A stretch of DNA of 33,627 bases from Candidatus Nanopelagicales bacterium (GTDB lineage: Bacteria; Actinomycetota; Actinomycetes; S36-B12), in assembly GCA_023263845.1 (NCBI GenBank), contig JALQUH010000184.1, positions 1 to 33,627 of the forward strand, in the 5' to 3' direction. Both the position numbers and the translations under genes were made by a program. Within the stretch, counting starts at the first letter, position 1. Every line of letters begins with the position of its first letter. Under the pieces are notes generated by a model. The model saw only the letters and a program-made list of their open reading frames with translations, was not told the DNA's origin and did not search any database. Below, one piece after another: positions 6,420 through 25,666 of this stretch.

Positions 6420-7376
6420 CTAGTTCCGAGCAATCCCCGTCACCCCCGCGACGTTAAGCACTGGAACGACCGCGTTCCCATCGCGAAGGCTGATCACCCC
6501 GCTTGTGTCGAGTGACCCCACCGCTGCGGCTGAGAGACCCTGCTCGCGAAAGGCCGATACACACGCATCTGTCCTGTGAGGCTGGCACGTGAGGAGGAAG
6601 CCGAAGCACGGAAAGCAGTTGAACCACTTCTCGAGCGGTACTCCCTGGGGAGCCGGCACTCGGCGGACATCCACGACGACGCCGAAGCCACCTAGTTCGA
6701 GCAGCATGGCCAGCGACCCCACCAGCCCGGCCATGCTGATGTCCTTGGCAGCCTCCGCCAGAGTCTCACGCGCGATGCGAGCAAGCAGGCGCACATCGTC
6801 GGCCAGGCGTGCCCCACGCTCATCGAAGGACCGGAAGAAGGGAAAGTCCTCGCGCATGGTGCCCTCGACGCACGCGGCAACCACGAGGTCCTGCCCGGCG
6901 CGCGCGCGAGTGACCGAAAGCACGGCGTCGGCGTGACCCAACGCGAAGGCGGATAGTGACGCAGGACCCTCCGACGGCGTGTAGTGGCCGCCTACGATCG
7001 GCACCCGATATAGATCGGCCGCCCATTTCATCCCCTCGAGAATCTGCTGTGCTTGTTCCGCGGGAGCGACCACGGTGTCAACGATCGCCATCGGCTCACC
7101 GCCCATGGCGGCGACGTCGTTGACATTCGCGAGCACCGCTGCGACCCCCGCTCCGTAGGGGTCCTCGGCCACGAAGGGCGGATAGATTGCCTCGCCGCAG
7201 GCGATGGCGGTGGACCCGCCCAAGGGCAGTGCTGCACCGTCGTCGCCGGGCCCGCGCAGCCAGTCACCCGGTGGCAGAACGTCGGAGATCAGGCCGATGC
7301 TTCTCTTGCTGGTGATGGACGGATTCGCCGCCACCGCGGCGGCGATCCTCTCAAGGCCCTCCGCGCCGCCAGTCAT
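6420..7376 (-). CDS. AIR-synthase-like protein of the Nit1C type (Sll0787 family)
   Basis: The 318-residue protein has a PurM/AIR-synthase fold. The N-terminal half carries GPGDDGAALPLGG and VLANVNDVAAMGGEP, the usual ATP/metal-binding motifs, and the C-terminal half carries the AIRS_C-like region (GLVGSLAMLLELGGFGVVVD). Length and motifs fit the Sll0787 family, whose members occur in Nit1C clusters next to a nitrilase, a radical SAM protein and a GNAT. The reaction is unknown; the fold suggests ATP-dependent activation of an amide or similar group. It is divergent from the ComA-type operon with only 59 bases between the starts. ATG 7376 has a weak GGGG five bases upstream. Its Nit1C partners are at 18875, 21127, 25667 and 26854 in this window. 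Confidence 0.8.
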   Translation of the reverse strand: MTGGAEGLERIAAAVAANPSITSKRSIGLISDVLPPGDWLRGPGDDGAALPLGGSTAIACGEAIYPPFVAEDPYGAGVAAVLANVNDVAAMGGEPMAIVDTVVAPAEQAQQILEGMKWAADLYRVPIVGGHYTPSEGPASLSAFALGHADAVLSVTRARAGQDLVVAACVEGTMREDFPFFRSFDERGARLADDVRLLARIARETLAEAAKDISMAGLVGSLAMLLELGGFGVVVDVRRVPAPQGVPLEKWFNCFPCFGFLLTCQPHRTDACVSAFREQGLSAAAVGSLDTSGVISLRDGNAVVPVLNVAGVTGIARN

Positions 7377-7435
7377 GCAAGCCCCGATCTGCCGAGAAAG
7401 GTGTCCGAAAGTGAATGGTCTCCTATCATAGTGAT
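7377..7435. promoter_or_regulatory. Divergent promoter region with likely leaderless start for the ComA-type operon
   Basis: On the plus strand TATCAT (7424-7429) is followed six bases later by the GTG at 7436, the spacing expected if transcription begins at the start codon. No ribosome binding site precedes that GTG. On the minus strand the same bases give TATGAT, a possible -10 for the AIR-synthase-like gene. ATCA-TAG-TGAT (7425-7435) forms a short inverted repeat over both. No good -35 box is visible. Confidence 0.45.
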
Positions 7436-8215
7436 GTGAGTCCCGATTTCCTCCGGCTTGGGCAACTGCCCTCGAAGCCGCGCCAGATCGGTCTCACCCA
7501 TGCCCTCGACAAGGGCATCAGCGTCGAAGCCATGGTGGGCATTCTCACGTCCTATCGGGAGTTCATCGACATCTGGAAGTTCGGTTGGGGCACCTCCTAT
7601 GTCGAGCCTCGCCTCGCAGAGAAGATGTCACTGCTGAAGGCGCATGGCGTGCAGGCTTGTGTCGGTGGCACCCTGCTGGAGATCGCATGGTCGCAGGGAC
7701 GGGTGGAGGAGTGCCTTGACTGGGCGCAATCCGCTGGCTTCGAAGCGGTTGAAGTCTCGCGCGGCGTGGTGCCGATGTCGCTGGATGACAAGCAGTCGAT
7801 CATCCGTCGCGCGGCACCTGAATTTACGGTCTTCGCGGAGACGGGCTATAAGACCGAGGAGCGACTGCTACTCCCCGACGAGTGGCGGCGTGAATTCCTC
7901 GAGGATATGGCCAGCGGTGCACGCTACGTTGTCGCGGAAGGCCGTGAGAGCGGCACGATCGGGGTGTACGACGCTGCTGGGCGGACCCAGGTCGATGTCG
8001 TCGATGCGGCCGTGGAGGCGGCGGGTATCGAGCGAGTCATCTTCGAGGCTCCGCGTAAGGACCAGCAGGTGTGGTTCATTGAGCGGCACGGCCACACTGT
8101 GAACCTCGGCAACATCGGGGTCTTCGACGTTCTCGCCTTGCTCACCCTGAGGATGGGCTTGCGTGCCGACACCGCTCATCTCTCAACGGGCGAGATCACC
8201 CAGGTACGGGTATGA
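7436..8215 (+). CDS. Phosphosulfolactate synthase (ComA) family protein
   Basis: The 259-residue protein resembles ComA, the TIM-barrel enzyme that adds sulfite to phosphoenolpyruvate to give (2R)-phospho-3-sulfolactate, the first step of coenzyme M synthesis. Visible family motifs are KPRQIGLTHALDKG near the start, WKFGWGTSY (catalytic Lys region) at about residue 45, GGTLLEIA, FEAVEVSRGVV, GYKTEER and FEAPRKDQQVWFIE. GTG 7436 is preferred over ATG 7415 because it gives the usual N-terminus and fits a leaderless promoter. It is the first gene of a seven-gene operon in which every junction overlaps. Two aspartase-superfamily lyases and a PLP enzyme follow, as in the bacterial xcb coenzyme M genes. 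Another nucleophile than sulfite is conceivable. Confidence 0.85.
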   Translation: MSPDFLRLGQLPSKPRQIGLTHALDKGISVEAMVGILTSYREFIDIWKFGWGTSYVEPRLAEKMSLLKAHGVQACVGGTLLEIAWSQGRVEECLDWAQSAGFEAVEVSRGVVPMSLDDKQSIIRRAAPEFTVFAETGYKTEERLLLPDEWRREFLEDMASGARYVVAEGRESGTIGVYDAAGRTQVDVVDAAVEAAGIERVIFEAPRKDQQVWFIERHGHTVNLGNIGVFDVLALLTLRMGLRADTAHLSTGEITQVRV

Positions 8216-9117
8216 CAATGCTGGGGCGCGCAACGCGCAACGCTGTCCCGAGTGCCTATCGCGGCGTCGCGATTGCTCACCTCGATGCCCCTCTCACCGA
8301 GCAGTCCCTCGTGGGATATTTCCTCGGGCGAGAGTCCTATCGGCGCACGCGCTTCATCGTGGCGCGCGGACCTGGCGATGAGACCGCCCTGCTGCATGTG
8401 AGTCGGGATGATCACGACTCCCTCTTCGCGCCGATCACCGCCGTTGAGGTACTCGCTCTGCCTCCCGAGTCGGCCTACGTCGTCGCCCCGGACGCCGACA
8501 CCGCCGTCCCGTCGAGCCTCGCCGCCGTCGCCGTTCACCGGGCACCCGGCGCCAAGGCGGTCGTCGTCGAGGGTAGGTATCGACATGTCAACTTCATCCT
8601 CAATCCCGATCCCATCCGAATCACTGTGCTTGAGGTCGTTCCGCCTCGCCCAGCGAAACTCGCAGACCAGGTACAGCGGCTCCTGGACGTCGCGGAAGAC
8701 CTTGTTCCGATGGTCGTCGACGTGCAGGCAACGGATCTTGGCGAACTCGCAACCGAGATGACCTCGCCGACGTACCTCATGCCATGCCGTGGATCGGATG
8801 CCACCGTGGTGGGCGCGCAGGTGCGCTACCTCGACGAGCGACCCCCGCGTGAGGACTGGGTCCTCCTCGGATGCGATCGCTCACGAGAGATACACGAGTG
8901 GTTCTATGGCGATGTCCCGCCCGGGGCCGATGTGTGCCCACGGAAGGTCGCGGTCGCCGACGGCTCCGCCGCGCTCGCCAAGTGCTGCCTCCTCGAGTCC
9001 AGCATCGAGGTTGATGAGGACAAGATTGTGGTGCCCTGGGGAGCCTCCATGGCACAGGTGCGGGAAGCACTGACGCTCATCGCGAGGGCACGGGAACCCG
9101 AGTGGTCAGCCGTCTAA
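8212..9117 (+). CDS. Conserved-looking protein of unknown function with C-terminal cysteines
   Basis: I do not recognise this 301-residue protein with confidence; it may belong to an actinobacterial domain of unknown function. It starts at an ATG that overlaps the previous stop (ATGA). It has no signal peptide or membrane segment. The first 190 residues contain no cysteine, whereas the last 110 contain five (about residues 192, 221, 242, 258, 259, in MPCRG, LGCDRS, VCPRK and KCCLL), with a His in REIHEWFY. That distribution suggests a metal or Fe-S site or a redox-active centre. Other distinctive stretches are HVNFILNP and PPRPAKLADQV. Position two in the operon suggests a role in the same pathway, possibly the thiol-forming or sulfur-handling step that the recognised enzymes leave open. 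Confidence 0.7.
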   Translation: MTMLGRATRNAVPSAYRGVAIAHLDAPLTEQSLVGYFLGRESYRRTRFIVARGPGDETALLHVSRDDHDSLFAPITAVEVLALPPESAYVVAPDADTAVPSSLAAVAVHRAPGAKAVVVEGRYRHVNFILNPDPIRITVLEVVPPRPAKLADQVQRLLDVAEDLVPMVVDVQATDLGELATEMTSPTYLMPCRGSDATVVGAQVRYLDERPPREDWVLLGCDRSREIHEWFYGDVPPGADVCPRKVAVADGSAALAKCCLLESSIEVDEDKIVVPWGASMAQVREALTLIARAREPEWSAV

Positions 9118-10433
9118 CGGAGTCTGCGACGTACCGGCACGGCTGGACGACGCCGGAAGCCGACGCCATCCTCTCTGAGCCCGCCCGGATCGCCGCTTGG
9201 GTGCAGATCCTGTCCGTACTCGCACGCGAGCAGGCGGCCATGGGCTTCATCCCCGAGGAGTCAGCCCGGGATATCGCGCGCATCGACCCCGACGACCTTG
9301 ACATCGAGGCCGTGGCGGCAGGCACCCGTGAAACGTCGCATTCCACACTGGGCTTCATCCATGTCTTGCAGCAGGCGTTGCCGGAAGAGTCACGCGAGCA
9401 CGTGTATTTCGGGATCACGGTGCAGGACCTCACCGACACATGGTTTGCCCTCGTCATGCGCGACATCGCTTCGCTCGTGCTGGCAGACCTGCGTGAGTGC
9501 CAAGACGCCTGCGTCGACCTGGCACGGCGCTATCGCGTCACCGTGATGCCCGGGCGCACGCACGGGCAGGCTGGAGCACCGATCACTTTCGGTTTCAAGG
9601 CGGCCACGTGGGCAGATGAGATCAGCCGCCAGCGCGAACGGGTAGTGCAGGGTCTGCGTCGCTGGTCGGCGGGTCAACTGGCCGGAGCAACGGGGACGAT
9701 GGGCTTCTTCGACGGCCGTGGTGGTGAGCTTCGCGCGCGAGTGTGCGATGGGCTTGGGCTTGCGGACCCGGGCATGTCGTGGACGTCGAGCCGGGACCGG
9801 ATTAGTGAGTTCGGCACGACCATGGCGTCGGTCTGCGCCACTCTCGCCCGTATCGGCAATGAGGTCTACGAGCTCCAGCGGACTGAGATCGGTGAACTTC
9901 GCGAGGCACGCTTGCCCGGCACGGTCGGCAGCATCACGATGCCACACAAGCGCAATCCGGAGCGCAGTGAGCACCTCGACACGCTCGCGCGCGTGGCACG
10001 CGCGGCCGCGAGTGTCCTCCTCGAAGCGCAGGTGGGTTCGCATGAGCGGGACGGCCGTGCGTGGAAGTCGGAATGGTTCGCGCTTCCCGAGATCGCGCTT
10101 GTCTCCGCGACGGCGGCGCGCCAGGCCGCCGCTCTCCTCAGCGGCCTTGAGATCGACACGCAGGCGATGGAGAGGCATGTCCTTGCGGATGACACATGGG
10201 CGTCGCAGCAGATCCTCGTCGGCCTGTCTGCCCACCTCGGAAAGCACCGTGCTCAGGCGCTCCTCCAGGATGTTCTCGAGCGTGGGCTTGGCGGTGAACC
10301 TCTCATCGACGAAGTGGCCTCAGCCGCGGGTGTGCATCGCGAGATCGTTCGCGAGTGGCTCGTGGCACCCGATGTGCGTGAGGCCGTGGCCATGGTGGAC
10401 GACGTGACGAGACGGCTCGGCGGCTCGACATGA
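9102..10433 (+). CDS. Aspartase/fumarase-superfamily lyase, adenylosuccinate-lyase-like
   Basis: The 443-residue protein shows the three conserved regions of the superfamily: TSHSTLGFIHVL (about 78-89), GRTHGQAGAPITFG (about 151-164, with the general-acid His) and the flexible-loop signature GSITMPHKRNP (about 276-286). Members catalyse reversible beta-elimination or addition at fumarate-like carboxylates. In the bacterial coenzyme M pathway two such lyases act after ComA: one removes phosphate from phosphosulfolactate to give sulfoacrylate and one adds ammonia to give cysteate. This gene and that at 11368 could fill these two roles. GTG 9102 overlaps the preceding gene by 16 bases. It is clearly not the housekeeping purB, given its context and its divergence from that family. 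Confidence 0.82.
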   Translation: MVSRLTESATYRHGWTTPEADAILSEPARIAAWVQILSVLAREQAAMGFIPEESARDIARIDPDDLDIEAVAAGTRETSHSTLGFIHVLQQALPEESREHVYFGITVQDLTDTWFALVMRDIASLVLADLRECQDACVDLARRYRVTVMPGRTHGQAGAPITFGFKAATWADEISRQRERVVQGLRRWSAGQLAGATGTMGFFDGRGGELRARVCDGLGLADPGMSWTSSRDRISEFGTTMASVCATLARIGNEVYELQRTEIGELREARLPGTVGSITMPHKRNPERSEHLDTLARVARAAASVLLEAQVGSHERDGRAWKSEWFALPEIALVSATAARQAAALLSGLEIDTQAMERHVLADDTWASQQILVGLSAHLGKHRAQALLQDVLERGLGGEPLIDEVASAAGVHREIVREWLVAPDVREAVAMVDDVTRRLGGST

Positions 10434-11371
10434 TCAAGGACATCGCCCGCTGCTCGCTCGGGCACTTCCCTACGCCCCTGCACACGTTGCCGGACCATGA
10501 CGCACTCTGGGTGAAGCGTGATGACCTTGCGGGCTTCGTCTGGGCGGGTAACAAGACCAGGTCATTGGAGTTTCTCATGGCCGAGGCCCTGGGGAAGGGA
10601 GCGTCCTGCGTCGTCGGTGGTGGCGTGTCGACGTCCAACTTCATCGCTGCTCTCGCTGTGGCTGCATCTCGTCTGGGACTGCGCTGCCACCTCCTCGTGC
10701 CCGCGCCCGTAGAGGCGACCACGAGTATTCGCCTCGCCCGCCTTGTCGGCGCCGTCGTGGAAGAAGTGCCCTTTTCGCGCGATGAGCTCGACGAGGCCAT
10801 CGGGCGACGCGCAGCCGAACTCGACGCGCAGGGCCATGTCGCCTACCCGATCGCCCGCGGTGGAGCGACCGCTACGGGCGCCCTGGGATTCACCGCAGCA
10901 GCTGCTGAACTCAAGGAGCAACTTCTGGCTCAGGGCTGGTCGATAACCGACCCCTGCACGGTCGTCATCCCGGTCGGCTCTGGAGCGAGCATCGCCGGAC
11001 TCCTCGCTGGGACGTCGCTGACTGAGACGCCCTTCAGGGTCGTCGGCATCAGCGTGAGTCGCCCACCCGCCGACGTCGAGTGGGGGATCACCCGATTGGC
11101 TGGCGAGGTGCTCGCCCGTCTCGGCGCCAACCCTTCTCGGCTGGCTTCGTGCGATGTGGAGGTGATCGATCGCCGGCGTGCCCCGGGCCCGGAGGATGCT
11201 CGCCAAGCGGCCGCGTCCCTCGCACGTCAGGGTTTGCTCGTCGACGACCACTACGGGCTGCCCACGTGGCTTGCGGCTCAGGGCATCGTGAAGGAGCAGC
11301 ACCCCGTCGTCGTCTGGCAGACGGGGGGCCTGGCGGGCGTTCCGCAACTGCTGGCGGAGGTAGGGCAATGA
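10430..11371 (+). CDS. PLP-dependent enzyme of the D-cysteine desulfhydrase / ACC deaminase family
   Basis: The 313-residue protein has the fold-type II motifs of this family: WVKRDDLAG, AGNKTRSLEFL with the Schiff-base Lys at residue 42, VVGGGVSTSN, and a phosphate-binding loop PVGSGASIAGLLAG. The usual QSNH motif is changed to TSNF (residues 68-71), so the histidine typical of D-cysteine desulfhydrase is missing and the chemistry probably differs. In the xcb pathway the PLP enzyme of this family acts on cysteate to give sulfoacetaldehyde. Alternatives are beta-elimination or beta-substitution on a cysteine-like amino acid. ATG 10430 overlaps the previous stop by four bases; the ribosome binding site is weak, so translational coupling is likely. 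Confidence 0.82.
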   Translation: MIKDIARCSLGHFPTPLHTLPDHDALWVKRDDLAGFVWAGNKTRSLEFLMAEALGKGASCVVGGGVSTSNFIAALAVAASRLGLRCHLLVPAPVEATTSIRLARLVGAVVEEVPFSRDELDEAIGRRAAELDAQGHVAYPIARGGATATGALGFTAAAAELKEQLLAQGWSITDPCTVVIPVGSGASIAGLLAGTSLTETPFRVVGISVSRPPADVEWGITRLAGEVLARLGANPSRLASCDVEVIDRRRAPGPEDARQAAASLARQGLLVDDHYGLPTWLAAQGIVKEQHPVVVWQTGGLAGVPQLLAEVGQ

Positions 11372-12828
11372 GCGACAGCAGTAGCGATTTGCGCGGAGCG
11401 GCAGAGCTCGAGGCCGCGGGCTACGCATGGGAAATCGGGGATGCGCCGGTCCTGCACCGCTGGCTGACGCTCGCCGACCTTGCCCATGCCCTCGAACTTC
11501 GACGCCTTGGCGCACTGCCACCGTCGTCGCGGCTCATCGAAGGGCTGCTGCTCCTGTGGGACACCAACGCTGACGCGATGGGCTACGCCCCCGAGTTTGG
11601 CGAGGTCTACACCTCGCGTGAGCACTGGCTGCGTGGCCGAATCGGGGATGATGCGGGCCATCTCCATCTCGGTCGCACCCGACGCGAGGCTGTGCGCACC
11701 GCGTTCCGCATGTGTTGTCGCGTGGCTATCGCTGACCTCATCGACAGCCTGACGCACGCCGTGGCGGTCATCTGTGACAGATCGATCTCCTGGTCTGATG
11801 TGCTTGTTCCTGACTACACCTACTTGCAGCCGGCGCAGCCCACGAGCTTCGGTCACTACCTCCTGGGGTTCGCGGAGCCACTGGTGAGGGATGCGCGGCG
11901 TCTTCTCGCAGATGTGCGCGACGTCGATGCGAGTCCGGCCGGGTCAGGAGCCGCCAACGGCTCCACCCTCGCCCTCGACCGGGATCGGGTGGCGCGCCAG
12001 CTTGGGTTCGCGCGTCCCATCCGGCACCTGCGCGATGCCATGTGGCAGACGGATCCCTTCCTGCACGCGACGTGTGATGCAACATCGGTCGTCCTCACCC
12101 TGGACCGCTTGGCCGAGGACCTCGAGATCTACTCGAGCCGTGAGTTCGGCTTCGTCTCGTTGGGTGACGGGCTCGTGCGTCCGAGTGTCCTCATGCCCCA
12201 AAAACGCAACCCCTACGCGCTCTCGGTGGTGCGCGGAACTGCTGCTTTGCTCATTGGCCGATCCGGCACGCAGATGGCTCTGGCGAAGTCCCCTTCCGCG
12301 CGCAGCGACGCCCTCATCTACGCCTACGGGGAGGTGCCGAGAGCACTGGAGTGGGCCGCTCGGAGCACGCGTCTCATGGCGGCTATCGTCGACACGCTTG
12401 CCCTGAACTCCGACCGGATGCGGGAGGCGCTCGCGGGCAGTCATGTCGAGGCGGCGGACGTCGCGCACGCGCTGTGCGCCGCCACCGAAATCGACTACGG
12501 CAGCGCCCACGCCGTGGTCGCGCACGCGCTACGCAGTGGAACCCTGAGCGCATCCTCGCTGCAGCAGGCGGCAGCGGAGCTCCTCGGCCGAGAGGTCACC
12601 GTCGACGCTGCTGACATCGAAGCCCTGTCCGATCCGCAGACGCTCCTGCGCCGTCGCCAGCTGCCGGGTGGTCCTGGTGACGTCGTCGACATGGCTGCGG
12701 AGTACGAGACTGAGCTGCGCGACATCAGGGCGCTCGTGGAAGATGCACGGGCCCGCTGGGGTGCGGCGGAAGAGCGAACGATCGACGAAGCGCGCCGAGC
12801 GGCGGGCACCAGAGGAGGACGGACATGA
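11368..12828 (+). CDS. Aspartase/fumarase-superfamily lyase, argininosuccinate-lyase-like but lacking the usual catalytic His
   Basis: The 486-residue protein aligns with argininosuccinate lyase at GHLHLGRTRREAV (about 97-109, cf. KLHTGRSRND), at DYTYLQPAQPTSFGHYLLGF (about 149-168, cf. THLQ.AQP..FGH) and at LMPQKRNP (about 275-282). The THLQ histidine, a catalytic acid in argininosuccinate lyase, is replaced by Tyr (TYLQ, residue 152), and the loop lacks the GSS preceding LMPQK (it reads RPSV). It is therefore unlikely to make arginine. It probably acts on another substrate in the operon, for instance phosphate elimination from a phosphosulfolactate-like acid. GGAGG lies seven bases before ATG 11368, which overlaps the previous stop (ATGA). 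Confidence 0.82.
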   Translation: MSDSSSDLRGAAELEAAGYAWEIGDAPVLHRWLTLADLAHALELRRLGALPPSSRLIEGLLLLWDTNADAMGYAPEFGEVYTSREHWLRGRIGDDAGHLHLGRTRREAVRTAFRMCCRVAIADLIDSLTHAVAVICDRSISWSDVLVPDYTYLQPAQPTSFGHYLLGFAEPLVRDARRLLADVRDVDASPAGSGAANGSTLALDRDRVARQLGFARPIRHLRDAMWQTDPFLHATCDATSVVLTLDRLAEDLEIYSSREFGFVSLGDGLVRPSVLMPQKRNPYALSVVRGTAALLIGRSGTQMALAKSPSARSDALIYAYGEVPRALEWAARSTRLMAAIVDTLALNSDRMREALAGSHVEAADVAHALCAATEIDYGSAHAVVAHALRSGTLSASSLQQAAAELLGREVTVDAADIEALSDPQTLLRRRQLPGGPGDVVDMAAEYETELRDIRALVEDARARWGAAEERTIDEARRAAGTRGGRT

Positions 12829-14234
12829 GCACGCGCGCGCTTCCCGATACGGGGACCGTCATCAATCTCGGACTCCCGCTCTTCGCCGAGTCTTTGGAGG
12901 AGCAGGGCGCCCGAGTGCTCCAGGTCGACTGGAGCATCCCCGCTGAAGGCGATGCCGACGACATCGCGGTGCTCAAAGAACTCTCGGGCACGCGGTCGGT
13001 CGCGATCGATGAGGCAAACGCCGAGGTGCTGCGCAGACTCGACACCGGCACTCCCATGCTCACCGGCGTCGTGCCGGCCCACGACGTCGTTTCTGCCATG
13101 TCGGAGGGGAGACTTCTGCTGCATGCCGGTCCGCCGATTGCCTACGCGCAGGTCTGCGACCCGCTGCGCCGGTCGATGCGCGCGGCGACGGTCGCCGAAG
13201 GCTGGGCTCCGAACGTGGCCGAAGCCGAACAGTTGCTTGTCGAAGGCGCGATCCGCATCGACTCCGCCAACGACCACGGTGTTGTGGTGCCGATGGCCAC
13301 GGCCCTCGGCCCTTCGATGCCGCTTTGGGTGGCCGACAATGCCGCGGGTGGCACGGTGGGCTACTCGCCGGTGAGCCAGGGACCGGGGGATGTCGCGTGG
13401 TTCGGTCGCGACAGCCAGGGTGCGATTGAACGGCTGGTGTTCCTTCGCGACGTGGCACAGCCGCGATTTGCGGCGATCCTGGCTGACATCGGTCCTGTCG
13501 ACATCATGGCGCTCGCCACTCAGGGCGTGCAGATGGGCGACGACGTCCATATGCGCACTCAGGCGAGCACCAACTTGCTCATCCGCGACATGCTCCCGGG
13601 TCTCGCCGCCCTAGCCGGAGACGCCGGCACCGTCGAACTCGGCGTCTACCTCTCCTCGAATCACCTCTTCTTCCTGACAATCGCGATGGCGGCGGCCAAG
13701 TCACTCACCGCCTCGGCCGAGACCGTGACGGGATCCACGATCGTCACGACGATGGCGCGCAACGGCACGACATACGGCGCAAAGGTCGCGGGGTCGGCAC
13801 AGTGGTTCACCGCGGATGCGCCCCCGGTGGCCGAGGCTCTGTACTACGCGGGCTTCTCGGAGGACGACGCCGCCCCGGACATAGGTGACAGTGCCGTGTT
13901 GGAACTCGTGGGTCTCGGCGGAGCCGCAGCGGCTGGCTCCCCGGCTGTGGCCGCCTTCCTTGGTGGCTCCATGGCCGACGCGGCGCGCGCGACGGACGAG
14001 ATGCGCCAAATTTGCGCGGGGAGCAGCAGTCGCTTCAAGTTGCCGATTCAGGAGTATCGCGGGACCCCCTTGGGGGTCGACGTACGCAAGGTCGTGCGGA
14101 CTCGACTACGTCCCAAAGTGACCACGGGAATCCTGCATGCATCGTCCGGCCACGGCCAGATCGGTGCGGGTGTGGCGACCGCACCACTGGGGGTCTTCCG
14201 CGACGTGGCGGCGCGCTTGGCCAGCGGCACGTGA
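12825..14234 (+). CDS. DUF1116 family protein (YlbE/AllG-like subunit of an oxamate carbamoyltransferase type system)
   Basis: The 469-residue protein has the DUF1116 hallmarks: LLHAGPPIAYAQVCDPLRR, ATVAEGW, NDHGVVVPMATALGPSMPLWV, QMGDDVHMRTQASTNLLIRDMLP and a glycine-rich C-terminus (GILHASSGHGQIGAGV). In E. coli the FdrA, YlbE (DUF1116) and YlbF (DUF2877) proteins, beside a carbamate kinase, form the system that splits oxalurate to oxamate and carbamoyl phosphate in allantoin use. All four parts are in this window: DUF2877 next door, FdrA at 22278-23813 and carbamate kinase at 23810-24811. GGAGG precedes ATG 12825 by six bases, and the start overlaps the previous stop. The true substrate here is unknown. 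Confidence 0.85.
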   Translation: MSTRALPDTGTVINLGLPLFAESLEEQGARVLQVDWSIPAEGDADDIAVLKELSGTRSVAIDEANAEVLRRLDTGTPMLTGVVPAHDVVSAMSEGRLLLHAGPPIAYAQVCDPLRRSMRAATVAEGWAPNVAEAEQLLVEGAIRIDSANDHGVVVPMATALGPSMPLWVADNAAGGTVGYSPVSQGPGDVAWFGRDSQGAIERLVFLRDVAQPRFAAILADIGPVDIMALATQGVQMGDDVHMRTQASTNLLIRDMLPGLAALAGDAGTVELGVYLSSNHLFFLTIAMAAAKSLTASAETVTGSTIVTTMARNGTTYGAKVAGSAQWFTADAPPVAEALYYAGFSEDDAAPDIGDSAVLELVGLGGAAAAGSPAVAAFLGGSMADAARATDEMRQICAGSSSRFKLPIQEYRGTPLGVDVRKVVRTRLRPKVTTGILHASSGHGQIGAGVATAPLGVFRDVAARLASGT

Positions 14235-15079
14235 TTCCGACCATCGGTAGCCGGGCGCGGCTCGCCGTGACCGCGGGTCAGTTCGGACGCGTCGTGGCTG
14301 TCTTCCCCCGTGCCATCTACGTGCGCTTCGCCGGCGCCGTAGGGGTCGTGGCCATTACCTCCATTGACGCGCCGTCCGGTCCGTTGCATATGCGCGTCAC
14401 CGAGCTGCCGAAGGCCTGCGTCGGAGACACGGTGGTGTGGCACGGGGACTCTCTTCTGGTGGGCGTGCATCGCCTTGGCATACCTGCCCAAGAGTGGGCG
14501 CCCACGCCTGTCGACCAGCTGATCGAACGGCGTGCGACGGCGGTCCGCGTTCTTCGCGACGTGCTCGGAACGACGCGGATGTTGGATCTGGACGGGCGTC
14601 CCTGGAATGTACGGGGCGACCTGCGCCGTCACGGTCTCCGTATGGCCATTGCCCATCTCGCCGGACGTGGAGCGGGTCTCACTCCCGCGGGTGACGATTG
14701 CGCCGGCGGAATCCTGTTCGTTACGGCGCTTCTTCGTGAGGCGGGCCTGTCGACCTGGTCTTCATCAGCGCTCGTCGAACTCGCATCCGGTCACGCTTCG
14801 CATGAGATCGCGGTGGCCTTCCTCGTGGAGGCGGCGCGAGGGGAATGCATCGAGCCCCTGCATGAGCTTCTCGGCTCTTCCGCGCTCGGTGATCGGCGCG
14901 AAGCAGCCCACACGATGTGCATCCTCGACAGAATCGGTCACACCTCGGGGCGCGACATGGCCTTCGGGATGCTGGTCGGGCTCGAGCTGGCCGACGTCAT
15001 CGCCGGTGACTGGCGCGTGGATCGTGACCATGTGAACAGTGCAAGCCATAGCCCGACGTACACGGCGACGATGAGGTAG
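14231..15079 (+). CDS. DUF2877 family protein (YlbF/AllH-like)
   Basis: The 282-residue protein carries the DUF2877 signature GLTPAGDDCAGG at about two thirds of its length, followed by a helical C-terminal half with SHEIAVAFLVEAARGE. It is the third component of the FdrA-DUF1116-DUF2877 carbamoyltransferase set. The GTG at 14231 shares bases with the stop of the DUF1116 gene (GTGA), so the two are translationally coupled. Its last 142 bases overlap the 3' end of the convergent cobalt permease gene (14938-15978). The last residues (HVNSASHSPTYTATMR) look like a non-conserved tail read from that overlap. Confidence 0.83.
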   Translation: MIPTIGSRARLAVTAGQFGRVVAVFPRAIYVRFAGAVGVVAITSIDAPSGPLHMRVTELPKACVGDTVVWHGDSLLVGVHRLGIPAQEWAPTPVDQLIERRATAVRVLRDVLGTTRMLDLDGRPWNVRGDLRRHGLRMAIAHLAGRGAGLTPAGDDCAGGILFVTALLREAGLSTWSSSALVELASGHASHEIAVAFLVEAARGECIEPLHELLGSSALGDRREAAHTMCILDRIGHTSGRDMAFGMLVGLELADVIAGDWRVDRDHVNSASHSPTYTATMR

Positions 15080-15978
15080 CCCATCCACTCGAAGTGGTCC
15101 GCGAGTCCGGCGATGGGGGAGAGCAACTCAAGGCCAAACTCCGCCCGCAGCAATTCCGAAAGATAGACCGCACCGACGACAAGGGCGATCGCGGCCGTCA
15201 GCCCGGTGACCGCGATGTTGAAGTGGAGTCGCACTCGCGCGGTGGTGGTTTCGGAGGTGTAGAGGTGCGTCATCATCAGCGAGTCCAGGGTGTCGAACAG
15301 CGCCATGCCGGCGGCGAAAAGAAGGGGCAGCGTCAGCAGGGCCCACCACGGAGCTCCCTGACTGCCCGCTGTCGCCGACAGGCCGAGGAGTGCGACCTCC
15401 GATGCCGTCTCCATCCCCAGGCCGAAGATGAAACCCACGGGCACCATCTGCCAGCCCGAGTGGATGCGTCCCCTCAGCCGGCCACCCATCGCCTTGCTCA
15501 GCACCCCCGTGGCCGCCAGGGGAATGTCTTCGGCTGGGTTGTCCGCTCGTGCCCGCAGCAGTCGGCCCACCAAGCGCGCGTTGAGGATGCCGATTGTGAG
15601 CAGGAAGGCGGCGGCGACGGTCATGGCGATGCGTCCGCCCAACTCCGCGAACGATGTGTCGCCGACGCGAGCCGCCGCCAACCCGACGACGATGAAGAGG
15701 AGGAAGACGACGAGTGAGTGACCGGTTGCAAAGCCGAGGCCGAGTGAGACTGGGGCTTTGCCTCGGTTGACGAGTAGCCGGGTCGTGTCGTCGATGGCCG
15801 CGAGGTGATCGGCGTCGAAGGCGTGCCGCATGCCCAGCACGAAGCACAGAACTCCCGCACTGGCGAAGGTCGCGCTCGGTGTGCTCGTGACGAGGTAGGC
15901 CGCGAAAGCTCCCCAGGCGACGAGGTTGAGTGCCACGACCGCGCCGAGGACGCGAATCACCTGGCGACGTTGCAGCAT
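14938..15978 (-). CDS. NiCoT family nickel/cobalt permease, likely cobalt supply for nitrile hydratase
   Basis: This 346-residue membrane protein has about eight hydrophobic segments and the NiCoT signature RHAFDADHLAAIDD in the second segment (about residues 51-64), plus the second family motif FIFGLGMETASEVALL and LFAAGMALFDTLDSLMM. NiCoT proteins (HoxN, NixA, NhlF) import Ni2+ or Co2+. In Rhodococcus rhodochrous J1 nhlF lies beside nitrile hydratase genes, and here a Co-type hydratase is about 3.5 kb away. There is no ribosome binding site before ATG 15978. Instead a -10-like TAGTCT (complement of 15985-15990) ends six bases before it, suggesting a leaderless mRNA. The last 28 or so residues overlap the convergent DUF2877 gene and are polar and Ser/Pro-rich. 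Confidence 0.92.
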   Translation of the reverse strand: MLQRRQVIRVLGAVVALNLVAWGAFAAYLVTSTPSATFASAGVLCFVLGMRHAFDADHLAAIDDTTRLLVNRGKAPVSLGLGFATGHSLVVFLLFIVVGLAAARVGDTSFAELGGRIAMTVAAAFLLTIGILNARLVGRLLRARADNPAEDIPLAATGVLSKAMGGRLRGRIHSGWQMVPVGFIFGLGMETASEVALLGLSATAGSQGAPWWALLTLPLLFAAGMALFDTLDSLMMTHLYTSETTTARVRLHFNIAVTGLTAAIALVVGAVYLSELLRAEFGLELLSPIAGLADHFEWMGYLIVAVYVGLWLALFTWSRSTRQSPAMTSASSSPTSIPKAMSRPEV

Positions 15979-16010
15979 GGTGTGAGACTAAAACGCTGTC
16001 GTCATCTTGT

Positions 16011-16025
16011 ATGGTGAATGACCAT
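16011..16025. promoter_or_regulatory. Inverted repeat between the cobalt permease and OsmC genes (candidate operator)
   Basis: ATGGT-GAATG-ACCAT is a perfect 5-5-5 inverted repeat in the 80-base gap between two divergent genes. It overlaps the expected -35 position of the leaderless permease promoter (17 bases upstream of TAGTCT), where a repressor would block transcription. Metal-dependent control is possible, but no regulator gene next to it supports that. Confidence 0.4.
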
Positions 16026-16058
16026 TTACTGTTGGGAATGCACCGCAGGAGGCAGGCC

Positions 16059-16454
16059 ATGGCCGACCGTGTGATCACCGCGCAGTGGCAGGGCGACTTC
16101 CGTGTCGACGTCGAGGCGGGTCGCTTCCCCCTTCGCGTAGACGAGCCGGAGCGCGTAGGCGGATCGGACACCGGCCCGCAGCCGACTGACCTGCTTCTCG
16201 CCGCTGTTGCCTCCTGCATGGTGCTGTCGGTTGCCTACAGTGCACGTAAGCGCAACCTTGAGTTGCACCACATCGATGTGACCGTGGGTGGGCACTACGA
16301 AGGCGTGCGATTCCGGTCGATCGAGGTGGCGGTATCGACAGATGCTCCAGACGACGTCGTCGACGTCCTCATGGCTTCGGCGCAACGGGTCTGCTACGTG
16401 ACGAACACTCTGCGGGACTCGCCCGAGATCACAGTGACCCACCACTCGGTGTAG
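16059..16454 (+). CDS. OsmC/Ohr-family protein
   Basis: The 131-residue protein has the OsmC fold features: GPQPTDLLLAAVASCMVLSVAYSARKR with the first redox Cys (residue 64) and ASAQRVCYVTNTL with the second (about residue 113). OsmC-type proteins reduce organic hydroperoxides through these two cysteines; many actinobacterial YhfA-like members have unknown substrates. AGGAGG lies six bases before ATG 16059. It is divergent from the cobalt permease and convergent with the regulator at 16475. It may protect the cysteine-rich enzymes of the island from oxidation, but this is a guess from position only. Confidence 0.85.
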   Translation: MADRVITAQWQGDFRVDVEAGRFPLRVDEPERVGGSDTGPQPTDLLLAAVASCMVLSVAYSARKRNLELHHIDVTVGGHYEGVRFRSIEVAVSTDAPDDVVDVLMASAQRVCYVTNTLRDSPEITVTHHSV

Positions 16455-16474: not shown

Positions 16475-17113
16475 TCAGGTGCCCCGGAGCACGACCCACA
16501 TGAGTTCGGCCTTGCCGTCTCCGTGATTCTCCCAGGAATGGGGGATATCACCGGACCAGTGGAGGGAGTCGCCCTCGGTGAGTAGGAACTCCTGGCCGCC
16601 CACGGTGAATCGTGCCGCGCCGCTGAGGACATAGACCAGCTCCTCGCCGGGATGCCTGAGGTGCTTCTCCCCGCTGTGCGCCCCGGGCTTCATCGAGGCG
16701 ACTGCTGCCGCCGCCTGGAACTGGCGGTAAGAACCGCTTACTCCGTCGAGGCGCAGGCCTTTGTGCGGGGTGTACACCTGCCGGCGCTCGGCAACGGGAG
16801 TGTGGTGGACGGGCTCGGGATGCAGTTCCTGCTCCTGCACGAAGTAACTCACTGGGACCCCCAGTGCGTTTGCGAGTTTGAGGAGTGTGGTGATCGTTGG
16901 CACCATGCCGTTTCGCTCGATCTTGTGAATCGCCGCGGCGGAGACGTCGCTCTTGGTGGCGAGCTGCTGCAGCGACAGCTTCTGGGCCTTGCGCAAGCCC
17001 GCCACCTTCGGTCCGATGTCGCTGACGATCTCCTCGAGGTCGGTCGAGGGCGCGATCGGGTCGGGTTCGCTGGTGGTGAGCGCAGCGGGGGGCCGCGACT
17101 TGCTCTTAGGCAT
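16475..17113 (-). CDS. XRE-family transcriptional regulator with C-terminal cupin sensor domain
   Basis: The 212-residue protein has an N-terminal helix-turn-helix (about residues 30-90: KVAGLRKAQKLSLQQLATKSDVSAAAIHKIERNGMVP, quoted in part as LQQLATKSDVSAAAIHKIER) and a C-terminal cupin-2 domain (about 130-205, with EKHLRHPGEELVYVLSG and GDSLHWSGDIPHSWENHG giving likely metal or ligand histidines). Such regulators sense a small metabolite through the cupin. ATG 17113 is preferred to GTG 17119 because GAGG is then eight bases upstream. It is divergent from the reductase/nitrile hydratase operon, with a promoter and palindrome at 17145-17187 between them, so it is the best candidate to control that operon and itself. 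Confidence 0.88.
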   Translation of the reverse strand: MPKSKSRPPAALTTSEPDPIAPSTDLEEIVSDIGPKVAGLRKAQKLSLQQLATKSDVSAAAIHKIERNGMVPTITTLLKLANALGVPVSYFVQEQELHPEPVHHTPVAERRQVYTPHKGLRLDGVSGSYRQFQAAAAVASMKPGAHSGEKHLRHPGEELVYVLSGAARFTVGGQEFLLTEGDSLHWSGDIPHSWENHGDGKAELMWVVLRGT

Positions 17114-17144
17114 GGACACTCCCTCGGCCGGCGCCTGCGGTCAC

Positions 17145-17187: not shown

Positions 17188-17249
17188 GAACGAGCAATAG
17201 CCGATGGTGTACGCCGCTCCCCGTGGCGACACCCGATGCCGGAGGCGAA

Positions 17250-18596
17250 ATGGCACAGCGGATCGTCGTGATTGGTGGCGGAGGCGGCGGCTTGGGGGCT
17301 GCCGGTGGAGCCAAGGCAGTCGACCCGGGGGCGTCGGTGACGGTGTTCACCGAGTTCGAGGACGTCGCCTACAGCCCCTGCGGGATCCCCTTCGTGCATG
17401 GCAAGGAGATCCCGAGTTTCGAAGCGCTCTTCCTCGCCGACAAGCAGGCGTATGTCGATGCGGGCATCGATATCCACTACAACACCACGGTGTCGTCGAT
17501 CGACGTGAATGCAAGGACCGTGGAGGTCGTGGGCAAGGGCACCGTCCCTTACGACTCCCTGGTGATCGCAACGGGCTTCTCGTATGCGGATCCCGGGGTC
17601 CCGGGTGCTGACCTCGATGGCCTGTACTACGTGAAGAACATCCGTTCCGCGATGGAGTGGGATAAGCGCCTCGACAGCGTGAAGAAGGCCGTGGTTCTGG
17701 AAGCCGGACCGCTGGGCATCGAGATGGCGACTGCGCTCGCCCATCGCGGCATCGAAACTCACATCGTGGACCCCAACCCGTGGGTGTTGGGTGAACTGTG
17801 CGACCCCGATATCGCGGAATTGGTGCAGGAGTCCTGGACCGAGATGGGTGTCCAGATGCACTGGAACACCAAACTCAACGCCTTCCTGGGCGACGACGCG
17901 GGATCAGTCCGCGGCGTCGACACGAGCGCCGGCGTGATCGACTGCGATCTCGTCGTTGTCGCCACGCATAAGGAGCCCAACAGCGCTCTGGCTGTCGCCG
18001 CCGGTATCAAGACCGGCTCGACCGGCGGCCTCATCGTGGATAGCAGCATGCATACGTCGGCACCTGGGGTGTGGGCGTGCGGGGACGTCTGCGAACTGCC
18101 ACATCAGTTAGGCGGACTCCCGCTTCAGGGCCTCACCGGGAGCCACGCTTACGCCCAGGGCAAGGTCGCCGGCGCCAATGCGGCGGGAGGCAGCCGCGAG
18201 TACCAGCCCGTCTACGTGCCGTGGGGCATGGTCGCCGGCAAGTGGATGATCGGTGGAGTTGCGCTCGGCGAGACTGCCGCGACGGCCCTCGGCATGCCCT
18301 ACGTCGTCGGTGCCGCCGATGGAATCTCTCGGGCCCGTTACTACCCGGGGGTCAAGAAGGTGCGCGTGAAGCTCCTAGCAGAGCCGGGCAGCCTGCGTCT
18401 CATCGGCGCCCAAATGGCTGGTGGTGAGGGCATCAAGGAGCGCGCAGACTTCCTCGGTGTCGCTGTCAAGAAGGGTCTCACCCTGCGAGACCTAGCCACG
18501 ATGGAAAACGTCTACTCACCGCCGATCGGTGCCCTCAATGAGCCCATCGCCGTAGCGGCGCAAAATGCCCTCGCCGCATTAGCGAAGGGCAAGTGA
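17250..18596 (+). CDS. FAD/NAD(P)-dependent oxidoreductase of the CoA-disulfide-reductase (class III) type
   Basis: The 448-residue flavoprotein has an N-terminal FAD motif (RIVVIGGGGGGLGAAGGA), the active-site region YSPCGIPF with a single redox Cys (residue 44) as in CoA-disulfide reductases and NADH oxidases, a second FAD motif (GVWACGDVCEL) and a dimerisation domain (about 320-448). The NAD(P)-binding loop reads VLEAGPLGIE, in which the first Gly of GxGxxG is Glu, so pyridine-nucleotide binding may be altered. The reductant target is unknown; a low-molecular-weight disulfide, for example a CoM-type disulfide, would fit the neighbouring ComA operon. ATG 17250 follows GGAGG by four bases and is preferred to GTG 17223. 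It is first in the nitrile hydratase operon. Confidence 0.85.
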   Translation: MAQRIVVIGGGGGGLGAAGGAKAVDPGASVTVFTEFEDVAYSPCGIPFVHGKEIPSFEALFLADKQAYVDAGIDIHYNTTVSSIDVNARTVEVVGKGTVPYDSLVIATGFSYADPGVPGADLDGLYYVKNIRSAMEWDKRLDSVKKAVVLEAGPLGIEMATALAHRGIETHIVDPNPWVLGELCDPDIAELVQESWTEMGVQMHWNTKLNAFLGDDAGSVRGVDTSAGVIDCDLVVVATHKEPNSALAVAAGIKTGSTGGLIVDSSMHTSAPGVWACGDVCELPHQLGGLPLQGLTGSHAYAQGKVAGANAAGGSREYQPVYVPWGMVAGKWMIGGVALGETAATALGMPYVVGAADGISRARYYPGVKKVRVKLLAEPGSLRLIGAQMAGGEGIKERADFLGVAVKKGLTLRDLATMENVYSPPIGALNEPIAVAAQNALAALAKGK

Positions 18597-18847
18597 TGGC
18601 GCGCTTCACCACATGGCTGCGCGTCAACTCACAGCACTATCTGCTGCAGGATGCCCACGTGCGCATGGCACGTAAATACGGCTATCCGACGCCTCCGGTG
18701 CGCGGATCCGTCTTCTGGAGCAAGATCTTCGTCCCCGTGTATCGACTGATGCCCTGGGGGCTAAGGCGGCCCATCATGACTGCCATCCCCGGGAGTCACC
18801 GCAAACGTTGGCCCGTCCAGATGCAGCCGGAGGGTCCGGCCATCTAA
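18596..18847 (+). CDS. Small basic protein of unknown function
   Basis: The 83-residue protein starts MARFTTWLRVNSQHYLLQDA and is rich in Arg, Lys, Trp, Tyr and Pro, with a moderately hydrophobic stretch (VFWSKIFVPVYRLMPWGLRR). I know no family for it. Its ATG shares its first base with the last base of the preceding TGA, so it is coupled to the flavoprotein; a GTG three bases upstream is an alternative. It may be an accessory protein or membrane-associated partner of the reductase. Confidence 0.65.
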   Translation: MARFTTWLRVNSQHYLLQDAHVRMARKYGYPTPPVRGSVFWSKIFVPVYRLMPWGLRRPIMTAIPGSHRKRWPVQMQPEGPAI

Positions 18848-18874: not shown

Positions 18875-19363
18875 ATGCCGAAGACCGTCAACAGGACCCT
18901 GCCGGCCGATGGCGAGGTCATGTTCAATGTCGAGGAGAAAATCTTCCCCGACATTCAGGCGAAGCCCGGCCAGAAGGCGTTCATCTTCATCCACACCGTG
19001 CCCTACGAGGGTTCGGTTCTCCTGGTCAACCTGCTGACGTCGACACGTCTGGTCCGCAAGGGCTTTGATGTGAACATCGTCCTGTACGGCCCTGGTGTCC
19101 TCGCAGCCGCTGGCACGCGCGGTTACCCGGGCGTCGGTCAGGCGGCCTTCCCGGGCCACCTGGCGATCAACGAGCAGATCAAGACCCTCCTCAAGGAAGG
19201 GGCGACGATCTACGCATGCCGCTTCGCCATGGGTGCCCTATACGGCTTCGGCGAGGATGACCTGATCGTGGGCGTTAAGCCCTTCAACCCGCTCGATGTG
19301 CTCGACGCTGCGCTCACCGCGTGGAGCGAGGGCGCCTTCCAGATGAACACCTGGACTGTCTAG
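18875..19363 (+). CDS. MSMEG_0572/Sll0783-family nitrogen starvation response protein (DsrE-like)
   Basis: The 162-residue protein matches the Sll0783 family in length and in its distinctive stretches: FIFIHTVPYEGSVLLVNLLT, LVRKGFDVNIVLYGPGV, GYPGVGQAAFPG, YACRFAMGALYG, FNPLDVLDA and the terminal NTWTV. The fold is DsrE-like, and one Cys (YACRF) is in the position used for sulfur or ligand chemistry in related folds. In cyanobacteria sll0783 is induced by nitrogen starvation and is the neighbour of the Nit1 nitrilase gene; its function is unresolved. GGAGG lies four bases before ATG 18875. Here it directly precedes nitrile hydratase instead of the nitrilase. Confidence 0.87.
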   Translation: MPKTVNRTLPADGEVMFNVEEKIFPDIQAKPGQKAFIFIHTVPYEGSVLLVNLLTSTRLVRKGFDVNIVLYGPGVLAAAGTRGYPGVGQAAFPGHLAINEQIKTLLKEGATIYACRFAMGALYGFGEDDLIVGVKPFNPLDVLDAALTAWSEGAFQMNTWTV

Positions 19364-24811: not shown

Positions 24812-24934
24812 GTGCTGCCTCCCGGGTGGGTCCAATCGGGGGACTTCCCCAACAGCGTACGTAATACGACACGACTCGCCTACGATAGTAAACGAGTGAC
24901 TCGCTCGTCGGCACTTCGGAGGAAGGAATGGAGC
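24812..24934. promoter_or_regulatory. Divergent promoter region of the carbamate kinase and 212-aa gene operons
   Basis: Plus-strand TACGAT (24881-24886) is a plausible -10 for the operon starting at 24935; a -35 is not clear. On the minus strand TATTAC (complement of 24863-24868) could serve the carbamate kinase operon. ACTCG (24874-24878) and CGAGT (24893-24897) form an inverted repeat around the plus -10. Assignments are tentative. Confidence 0.35.
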
Positions 24935-25573: not shown

Positions 25574-25666
25574 CGAAACCAACCTCCCAGCGCACATTGC
25601 GATCTAGACTCAAGCCAGGCAGTGGGCGGTGCTCCCCGGCCGCCATCCCAGGAGGGAGAACTCCCC

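Follow-up and report, generated by a model that had tools for sequence, protein, structure and literature searches.

Bacterial coenzyme M synthesis genes in a second genomic context: linkage with nitrile and carbamoyl genes in a Nit1C-type locus

In this article we describe an operon of a Candidatus Nanopelagicales bacterium which is predicted to encode all five bacterial coenzyme M (CoM) synthesis proteins together with two subunits of oxamic transcarbamylase (AllG and AllH), and which is one part of a conserved 20-kb unit. Judged by these genes, there is a second and so far undescribed context for CoM synthesis in bacteria, and it is quite probable that the synthesis is functionally linked there to a nitrile and carbamoyl pathway, with no metabolite, protein or phenotype data at hand. 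What was observed directly is which genes are present, their conserved linkage, the division of the CoM genes into two lineages, the invariance of the catalytic residues and the lack of an epoxyalkane:CoM transferase (EaCoMT) homologue.

The operon and the unit around it

The window, i.e. the whole stretch of DNA analysed (33,627 nucleotides), contains seven real ORFs at 7415-15079 (ComA, XcbA, XcbD-like, XcbE-like, XcbC-like, AllG, AllH in order), which by ORF calling overlap by 4, 16, 4, 4, 4 and 4 bases; the first-pass annotation had described seven overlapping genes with five 4-base junctions and one of 16, and the ORF coordinates agree. The starts of XcbC and AllH were separately checked. 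That annotation ended too soon: conservation extends from about 6420 to 27327, and this larger unit also holds AllF/FdrA, carbamate kinase, a cobalt nitrile hydratase (NHase) with its activator, a CoA-disulfide-reductase-like flavoprotein, OsmC, a cupin regulator and the Nit1C core (MSMEG_0572, radical SAM, GNAT, AIR-synthase-like protein, glycosyltransferase). The features are the following.

6420..7376, minus strand: AIR-synthase-like protein, sll0787/MSMEG_0567 C-terminal family, NitF-like (Pfam AIRS/AIRS_C; TIGR04049, 263 bits)
7415..8215, plus: putative ComA, phosphosulfolactate synthase (PF02679, 251 bits; PDB 1qwg/1u83 relatives); the start first annotated, 7436, is an alternative in-frame GTG inside this ORF
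8212..9117, plus: XcbA (DUF7714), CoM-locus protein (NF052538, 346 bits, cut-off 150; PF24830, 296 bits)
9102..10433, plus: XcbD-like aspartase/fumarase-superfamily enzyme (NF052536, 520 bits, cut-off 600)
10430..11371, plus: XcbE-like PLP enzyme, D-cysteine desulfhydrase family (NF052537 as best match, 164 bits, cut-off 450)
11368..12828, plus: XcbC-like aspartase/fumarase-superfamily enzyme (NF052535, 402 bits, cut-off 575)
12825..14234, plus: AllG, carbamoyltransferase subunit, DUF1116 (PF06545, 216 bits; PDB 3clq relative)
14231..15079, plus: AllH, carbamoyltransferase subunit, DUF2877 (PF11392, 65 bits)
14938..15978, minus: NicO-family Ni/Co transporter, 3' overlap with AllH (PF03824, 182 bits)
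15930..16454, plus: OsmC-like protein, start probably near 16059 (PF02566)
16475..17119, minus: HTH-cupin regulator (HTH_3 and Cupin_2)
17223..18596, plus: CoA-disulfide-reductase-like FAD protein, single-Cys motif PCGIP (TIGR03385, 236 bits)
18593..18847, plus: small conserved protein of 84 aa, 4-base overlap with the flavoprotein gene (36 of 43 loci)
18875..19363, plus: MSMEG_0572/Sll0783 protein, DsrE-like, NitB-like (TIGR04044, 198 bits, cut-off 110)
19474..20157, plus: NHase beta subunit (TIGR03888, 163 bits, cut-off 152)
20154..20753, plus: NHase alpha subunit, cobalt type, VCTLCSC (TIGR01323, 310 bits)
20750..21130, plus: NHase activator with His-rich tail (NHase_beta_N, 52 bits; conserved after NHase alpha)
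21127..22368, minus: MSMEG_0565 family glycosyltransferase (TIGR04047, 351 bits, cut-off 260)
22278..23813, minus: FdrA/AllF, carbamoyltransferase subunit with succinyl-CoA-synthetase alpha-like domain (PRK06091, 387 bits; PDB 3dmy relative)
23810..24790, minus: carbamate kinase (TIGR00746, 338 bits, residues 278-582 of its ORF)
24803..25573, plus: conserved protein, roughly 200-250 aa long if it begins, as is probable, near 24935 (27 of 43 loci)
25622..26857, plus: MSMEG_0568 family radical SAM protein, NitD-like (TIGR04043, 390 bits, cut-off 304)
26854..27327, plus: MSMEG_0567 family GNAT acetyltransferase, NitE-like (TIGR04045, 108 bits, cut-off 68)

The loss of ComA active-site residues, which had been set beforehand as a refutation, was not seen: the protein aligns with 1qwg and 1u83 across 230-244 residues, and at its four motif positions K55, G85, R177 and E211 there is no variation in 110 of 110 sequences. 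The match to the fold family and the conservation of the catalytic motifs place it among the ComA proteins, its activity on PEP and sulfite being inferred. A Cys protein left without identity in the first-pass annotation proved to be XcbA, the missing member of the CoM synthesis set claimed there, so this claim holds; in the genome searches XcbA was detected by Pfam PF24830. Its AlphaFold model is confident (pLDDT 92, pTM 0.87), but since the model had no Foldseek match below E 0.001 and VIA-align gave Z at most 6 over about one third of it, the fold yields no function. Signature residues are invariant in the remaining enzymes as well (Ser, Lys and His of XcbD in 104 sequences, the PLP Lys of XcbE in 75, Ser and Lys of XcbC in 83). 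All five proteins are, by family assignment, encoded together, and CoM as their product is an inference.

Only XcbA passes its curated NCBIfam cut-off; ComA, XcbC, XcbD and XcbE are best family matches below theirs. ComA, XcbC (378) and XcbE (315) of Nocardioides JS614, whose XcbD passes, and XcbC of Mycolicibacterium chubuense (396) are likewise below, and because strains known to use CoM also fall short, these scores count little. The cysteate and sulfoacetaldehyde route suggested earlier found no support: NCBIfam names XcbD '3-sulfopropionylcysteine synthase', and PMC8727900 (reviewing Partovi 2018) gives different xcb steps, in which XcbC leads to sulfoacrylate, XcbD adds an undetermined co-substrate and XcbE thiolates.

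The predicted oxamic transcarbamylase set (AllF, AllG and AllH) is entire; its substrate, oxalurate/oxamate or other, is inferred. Carbamate kinase was over-called by an ORF of 595 aa reaching 25597, and the idea of a fusion protein was rejected, as the N-terminal part of this ORF is antisense to the conserved gene at 24803..25573. The cobalt NHase set likewise appears complete (alpha, beta and activator), with the three metal Cys of alpha in 46 of 46 sequences; the NicO transporter, present in only a few of the loci, is likely to supply its cobalt. Two Cys of the OsmC-like protein are invariant (both in 58 of 58 sequences), the MSMEG_0572 protein has one invariant Cys (Cys115, 46 of 46), and the PCGIP Cys of the flavoprotein aligns with solved relatives and is present in 55 of 62. 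The MSMEG_0572, radical SAM, GNAT and glycosyltransferase proteins all score above their NCBIfam cut-offs, and the AIR-synthase-like gene is conserved beside ComA. Among the window proteins scanned there was no Nit6803-type nitrilase, MSMEG_0569 flavoprotein, amidase or allantoin gene product. On its predicted gene set the locus is a Nit1C variant and not a canonical Nit1C.

Recurrence of the unit and comparison with known systems

The unit recurs, often rearranged, around the xcb genes of 43 loci in Actinomycetota, Pseudomonadota and one Dormibacterota MAG. Other Nanopelagicales genera keep the gene order of the 20-kb unit, with many proteins only 31-66% identical, and other phyla have it rearranged, so that the arrangement is not due to chance. 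A tree of ComA, XcbA and XcbD that included the xcb genes of alkene loci and was built without gene-context information separated the two contexts perfectly, at a single branch with a support of 100. The nitrile and carbamoyl link proposed in the first-pass annotation is accordingly real and conserved (43 loci, synteny, tree); that it is undescribed was borne out as far as open-access literature goes, where full-text search turned up nothing on CoM in connection with nitrile or Nit1C genes.

The two contexts differ clearly in their neighbours. AllG (33), AllF (24), OsmC (39), MSMEG_0572 (36) and NHase alpha (23) were found among the 43 Nit1C-type loci and in none of the 14 alkene-type ones, which contained no Nit1C or carbamoyl gene, whereas CoA-transferase (12), acyl-CoA synthetase (13) and SDR (9) were confined to the latter, with no alkene-type CoA-transferase or SDR gene next to xcb in any of the 43. 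Carbamate kinase was found in 24 of the fetched stretches around loci; AllG was not seen in 10 of the 43 loci, most of those stretches being short, and six loci showed no XcbE close to their xcb genes. In the order of the source organism XcbA is present in 14 of 15 genomes with MSMEG_0572 versus 6 of 151 without it, and most of the NHase-bearing genomes checked have NHase alpha no more than about 18 kb from XcbA. A nitrilase, of the Nit6803 type in those tested, occurs in three pseudomonadotal loci (L074, L086, L106); in several actinobacterial loci there is neither NHase nor nitrilase but an amidohydrolase-2. The idea that this amidohydrolase-2 stands in for NHase was weakened by its presence in most canonical Nit1C loci too, where it is an ordinary neighbour. 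Carriers among sequenced isolates are Pseudonocardia dioxanivorans CB1190, Actinomycetospora, Nocardioides, Kribbella and Ruegeria THAF57.

In the alkene degraders Xanthobacter autotrophicus Py2 (pXAUT01), JS614 and M. chubuense NBB4 the CoM loci have the same ComA, XcbA, XcbC, XcbD and XcbE with common signature residues, and the order ComA-XcbA-XcbD-XcbE-XcbC is that of JS614, an ethene and vinyl chloride degrader. The locus studied here forms a sister branch, in which Nit1C, AllFGH, carbamate kinase and NHase stand instead of EaCoMT, SDR, CoA-transferase and acyl-CoA synthetase. The absence of EaCoMT claimed at first was confirmed at the level of the 93%-complete genome, where PF01717, covering the whole MetE/EaCoMT family, had no match (10 of 14 controls matched). 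With Nit1C (Pseudomonas cyanide assimilation; MSMEG_0565-0572; sll0783-0788) the locus shares MSMEG_0572, radical SAM, GNAT, glycosyltransferase and the AIR-like protein, and differs by having no MSMEG_0569 flavoprotein and no nitrilase found in the window; the canonical loci examined are without xcb, AllFGH, carbamate kinase, OsmC, NHase, the CoA-disulfide-reductase-like and the small proteins. Three ORFs tested from a gap in canonical loci were MSMEG_0569 flavoproteins. In the allFGHK oxamic transcarbamylase operon of Escherichia coli AllF, AllG and AllH occur together with carbamate kinase, as here; the differences are that no allantoin pathway genes were found, that another substrate is expected, and that AllG and AllH lie in the CoM operon while AllF and the kinase lie in another.

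A possible carrier function of coenzyme M

The best explanation, which we hold tentatively and without metabolite data, is that the locus makes CoM and uses it as a thiol carrier by which the nitrogen of cyanide or a nitrile is released and assimilated, in a variant of Nit1C that conserves energy. By homology, ComA, XcbC, XcbD, XcbE and XcbA would convert PEP, sulfite and probably cysteine to CoM-SH (2-mercaptoethanesulfonate). Cyanide would attack the CoM disulfide to give CoM-S-CN, the disulfide being handled by the CoA-disulfide-reductase-like flavoprotein, OsmC and the DsrE-like MSMEG_0572 protein; the cobalt NHase would then hydrate CoM-S-CN to CoM-S-C(O)NH2. This amide needs a fate other than that by an amidase, none having been found among the scanned window proteins, and AllFGH with carbamate kinase supply one. 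AllFGH may phosphorolyse CoM-S-C(O)NH2 to carbamoyl phosphate and free CoM, an inference drawn from the kinship of AllF with succinyl-CoA synthetase, an enzyme that phosphorolyses a thioester. Carbamoyl phosphate is a product of AllFGH in E. coli (PMC11326118). In general chemical terms only a carbamoyl group bound to S, N or O can be phosphorolysed in this way, and CoM offers S. Carbamate kinase would finally yield ATP, NH3 and CO2, the known activity of its family. The exact chemistry from CoM-S-CN through CoM-S-CONH2 and carbamoyl phosphate to ATP, NH3 and CO2 is all inference and is somewhat less likely than not to be right in this form.

Several points count against this mechanism. NHase is not universal among the loci, and a nitrilase would release NH3 directly; the known AllFGH substrate is a ureido compound and not a thiocarbamate. 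HypE dehydrates a thiocarbamate to a thiocyanate, and as the AIR protein is a member of the HypE/ThiL/SelD superfamily, a reversed flow is possible. The HypE/HypF pathway connects carbamoyl phosphate with an S-carbamoyl thiol and an S-cyano thiol. The likeness to this hydrogenase-maturation route for the cyanide ligand is by analogy only: the AIR protein is distantly related to HypE, the thiol of HypE/HypF is a protein cysteine, the flow is biosynthetic, and no HypF was among the scanned window proteins.

It is unlikely, but has to be considered, that CoM is conjugated to a nitrile-bearing electrophile (epoxynitrile or acrylonitrile-like), with NHase acting on the conjugate and the carbamoyl genes handling later nitrogen. 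In alkene oxidation CoM is known to attack epoxides as a nucleophile (PMC8727900). Organic nitriles are substrates of NHase, and CoM genes stand with NHase in many genomes. Against it, no EaCoMT homologue exists in the genome and no other candidate CoM transferase was recognised in the locus; moreover, no known chemistry phosphorolyses a carbon-bound amide to carbamoyl phosphate, so that the presence of AllFGH and carbamate kinase would have no explanation. Even less likely is a product of the xcb-like genes other than CoM, either another sulfonate or another thiol. XcbC, XcbD and XcbE form their own clade with scores under the NCBIfam cut-offs, and the two contexts are on separate branches; nevertheless the alkene degraders JS614 and M. 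chubuense, too, have an XcbC and XcbE that stay below, and the signature residues are invariant across both clades. Furthermore, the operon of one genome (G090) has no XcbA within it, and its contig carries a divergent copy (39% identity), which suggests a shared product.

The reversed flow, where carbamate kinase and AllFGH would carbamoylate CoM and the HypE-like AIR protein would form CoM-S-CN for a cyano or nitrile product, we regard as improbable. Besides the superfamily of the AIR protein, it is favoured by the reversibility of AllFGH in vitro (PMC11326118), and by the biosynthetic-looking Nit1C core (radical SAM, GNAT, glycosyltransferase), which has no assigned product; however, the nitrile would be undone by NHase, and canonical Nit1C loci, whose function is cyanide degradation (PMC11049912), have the AIR protein as well but no CoM genes. 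That the operon is simply an alkene/epoxide CoM locus of the usual kind, or one for purine (oxalurate) catabolism, beside unrelated genes can practically be dismissed: although ComA-XcbE are those of alkene degraders and AllFGH is known from allantoin catabolism (PMC11326118), the alkene pathway, the allantoin pathway and a chance neighbourhood were rejected on the missing EaCoMT and, among scanned window proteins, allantoin genes, on the absence of CoA-transferase and acyl-CoA synthetase from all 43 loci, and on a linkage conserved across phyla with differing gene orders.

Meaning for coenzyme M and Nit1C

CoM has been described for archaeal alkane and methane metabolism and for bacterial alkene metabolism (PMC12068725). 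It is conceivable, though not to be taken as probable, that carrying cyanide as CoM-S-CN and CoM-S-CONH2 is a third role of this low-molecular-weight thiol, present in several phyla, in which the nitrogen of nitriles would leave as carbamoyl phosphate and ATP would be gained. The bacterial CoM genes are found in two old branches, one with alkene genes and the other with nitrile and carbamoyl genes, and this points to an undescribed use of CoM in at least 40 bacterial genomes. Since the carriers include culturable Pseudonocardia, Actinomycetospora and Nocardioides, the question is testable at once. If the second branch makes CoM, the cofactor would have a new job in nitrogen metabolism and the long-unexplained Nit1C genes would get a chemical setting; if the proposed mechanism is true, there would be a route from cyanide to ATP and ammonia.

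A complete coenzyme M gene set in the operon

The first-pass annotation had described seven overlapping reading frames combining a coenzyme M (CoM)-type enzyme set with carbamoyltransferase subunits; all seven were present at 7436-15079, with overlaps of 4, 16, 4, 4, 4 and 4 bases, the finding is real and its interpretation was largely right. According to family searches the products are, in order, ComA, XcbA, an XcbD-like lyase, an XcbE-like PLP enzyme, an XcbC-like lyase, AllG and AllH. The protein previously left unnamed (8212-9117) scored 346 bits in NCBIfam's XcbA family, whose cut-off is 150; with it the bacterial CoM gene set is complete. The CoM genes stand in identical order in Nocardioides JS614, where they form part of a vinyl chloride/ethene cluster (PMC8727900). 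ComA, XcbC, XcbD and XcbE of the window score under the NCBIfam cut-offs, as do XcbC and XcbE of Nocardioides JS614 and M. chubuense. Among the aligned sequences, from alkene degraders and from the present type alike, there was no variation at the signature residues of both aspartase-superfamily enzymes, at the PLP lysine or at four conserved motif residues of ComA.

XcbA (8212-9117; DUF7714) has five invariant cysteines and a confident AlphaFold model (pLDDT 92) without clear match in the PDB, and a Methanosarcina acetivorans protein also matches its family. The AllH and NicO transporter genes share about 140 bases at their 3' ends (14938-15079), an arrangement kept in a relative from the same genus (G028, locus L022). 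In loci L059, L091, L097, L099 and L103 XcbD lies directly 5' of XcbC and no XcbE was seen nearby, thus the PLP step may be done there by another enzyme.

A larger locus related to Nit1C

The conserved locus exceeds the operon and extends from 6420 to 27327. It includes OsmC, an HTH-cupin regulator, a CoA-disulfide-reductase-like flavoprotein with a single active-site cysteine, a small unknown protein, the beta and alpha subunits of a cobalt nitrile hydratase with their activator, the NicO transporter and, outside the seven genes, FdrA/AllF and carbamate kinase. In E. coli, AllF, AllG and AllH constitute oxamic transcarbamylase, which with carbamate kinase converts a carbamoyl group to carbamoyl phosphate and ATP (PMC11326118). 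Also present are an AIR-synthase-like protein, MSMEG_0572, the MSMEG_0565 glycosyltransferase, the MSMEG_0568 radical SAM protein and the MSMEG_0567 GNAT protein, members of the Nit1C cluster, which in Pseudomonas has been linked to the assimilation of cyanide (PMC11049912). Two proteins in the locus, the small one among them, have no assigned function:

18593-18847, small conserved protein of unknown function, belonging to the locus
24803-25573, plus strand, conserved protein of unknown function, antisense within the long stretch by which the carbamate kinase ORF is spuriously extended

The next-best family matches of the glycosyltransferase (21127-22368) include MshA and BshA, which catalyse the first step of mycothiol and of bacillithiol synthesis, and the invariant cysteines of the radical SAM protein (25622-26857) are oddly spaced (C159, C168, C171).

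Among 166 genomes of the order, MSMEG_0572 was found in 15, 14 of which also have XcbA, the sole exception being a 77%-complete MAG; XcbA occurred in 6 of the 151 genomes without MSMEG_0572, in alkene-type clusters wherever the neighbours were read (Fisher p 7e-15, not to be taken literally since the genomes are related). Across the wider class MSMEG_0572 without XcbA is common (61 and 15 of 395 genomes). Such loci are canonical Nit1C, with MSMEG_0572, radical SAM, GNAT, AIR and glycosyltransferase genes, often a nitrilase, and the MSMEG_0569 flavoprotein in all three tested for it; none of those examined contained xcb, AllFGH, carbamate kinase, OsmC or nitrile hydratase genes. By this difference the present locus is a variant of Nit1C, the usual flavoprotein and, in most cases, the nitrilase having given way to a module for CoM, carbamoyl and nitrile hydratase functions. 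An amidohydrolase-2 gene adjoins MSMEG_0572 in most canonical actinobacterial loci (L223, L224, L227-L230, L233-L235); it was not found as a listed Nit1C gene in the Nit1C literature examined.

Conservation of the linkage and two CoM lineages

The entire gene order is kept in other Nanopelagicales genera, and it varies among Pseudonocardia, Nocardioides, Acidimicrobiia, Kribbella, Dormibacterota, Ruegeria, Nitrobacter, Methylocystis and Sphingobium. This variation speaks for selection acting on the gene set rather than for simple descent. From 80 loci obtained by scanning genome contigs, with wider stretches added, 43 of the present (nit) type were compared with 14 of the alkene type; most stretches span only 15-20 kb, which makes the counts minimum values.

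Gene content of the two types of CoM loci (nit type; alkene type)
OsmC: 39/43; 0/14
MSMEG_0572: 36/43; 0/14
Small unknown protein: 36/43; 0/14
AllG: 33/43; 0/14
AllF: 24/43; 0/14
Nitrile hydratase alpha: 23/43; 0/14
Acyl-CoA synthetase: 0/43; 13/14
CoA-transferase: 0/43; 12/14
SDR: 0/43; 9/14

Since sorting by gene context would be circular if used alone, a tree of ComA, XcbA and XcbD was built without context information, and one branch with support 100 parted all 40 nit-type rows from all 16 alkene rows.

Both contexts occur within the window's own genus, where the close relative G027 (L025/L026) has an alkene-type cluster instead. In another genome, G090 (L217, G090:C65; 159-1013 and 12672-14808), the nit-type operon lacks XcbA between XcbD and ComA, and the opposite end of the contig encodes a divergent XcbA (39% identity, within the range of alkene-type ones), which suggests that its own XcbA was replaced by a different one.

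Proposed chemistry and its standing

Nitrile hydratase alpha lies about 3-18 kb from XcbA in most of the nitrile hydratase-bearing genomes checked; without this enzyme, three Pseudomonadota have a nitrilase within the cluster instead, and several actinobacteria only an amidohydrolase-2 gene. A second, more divergent alpha subunit is encoded elsewhere in the source genome (G000:C245:497-1042). No match to PF01717, to which epoxyalkane:CoM transferase and MetE belong, was found in this genome (2.5 Mb, 93% complete).

Apart from the family identity of the proteins, all steps of the following scheme, the favoured reading, are inferred. CoM would be synthesised to act as a thiol carrier, its disulfide would react with cyanide to CoM-S-CN, and nitrile hydratase, which counts thiocyanate hydrolase among its relatives, would hydrate this to S-carbamoyl-CoM. 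AllFGH would then release carbamoyl phosphate; such a thiocarbamate substrate fits, since AllF is related to succinyl-CoA synthetase, which phosphorolyses a thioester. Carbamate kinase would yield ATP, ammonia and CO2. Control of the thiol/disulfide state would fall to three proteins whose cysteines are conserved in the alignments: the flavoprotein, OsmC and the DsrE-like MSMEG_0572 protein. In its favour, the inferred scheme assigns every module a task and accounts for no amidase having been found. Against it, nitrile hydratase is not universal among the loci, no role is given to the radical SAM, GNAT, AIR and glycosyltransferase proteins, and the kinship of the AIR protein to HypE would be just as compatible with flow in the opposite direction.

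No published description of CoM synthesis in this context was found in the open-access papers searched, subscription papers and preprints being outside the scope. The chemistry linking CoM, nitrile and carbamoyl metabolism is a proposal; the association itself is well shown, and on this genomic evidence bacterial CoM synthesis would have a second, widespread context.
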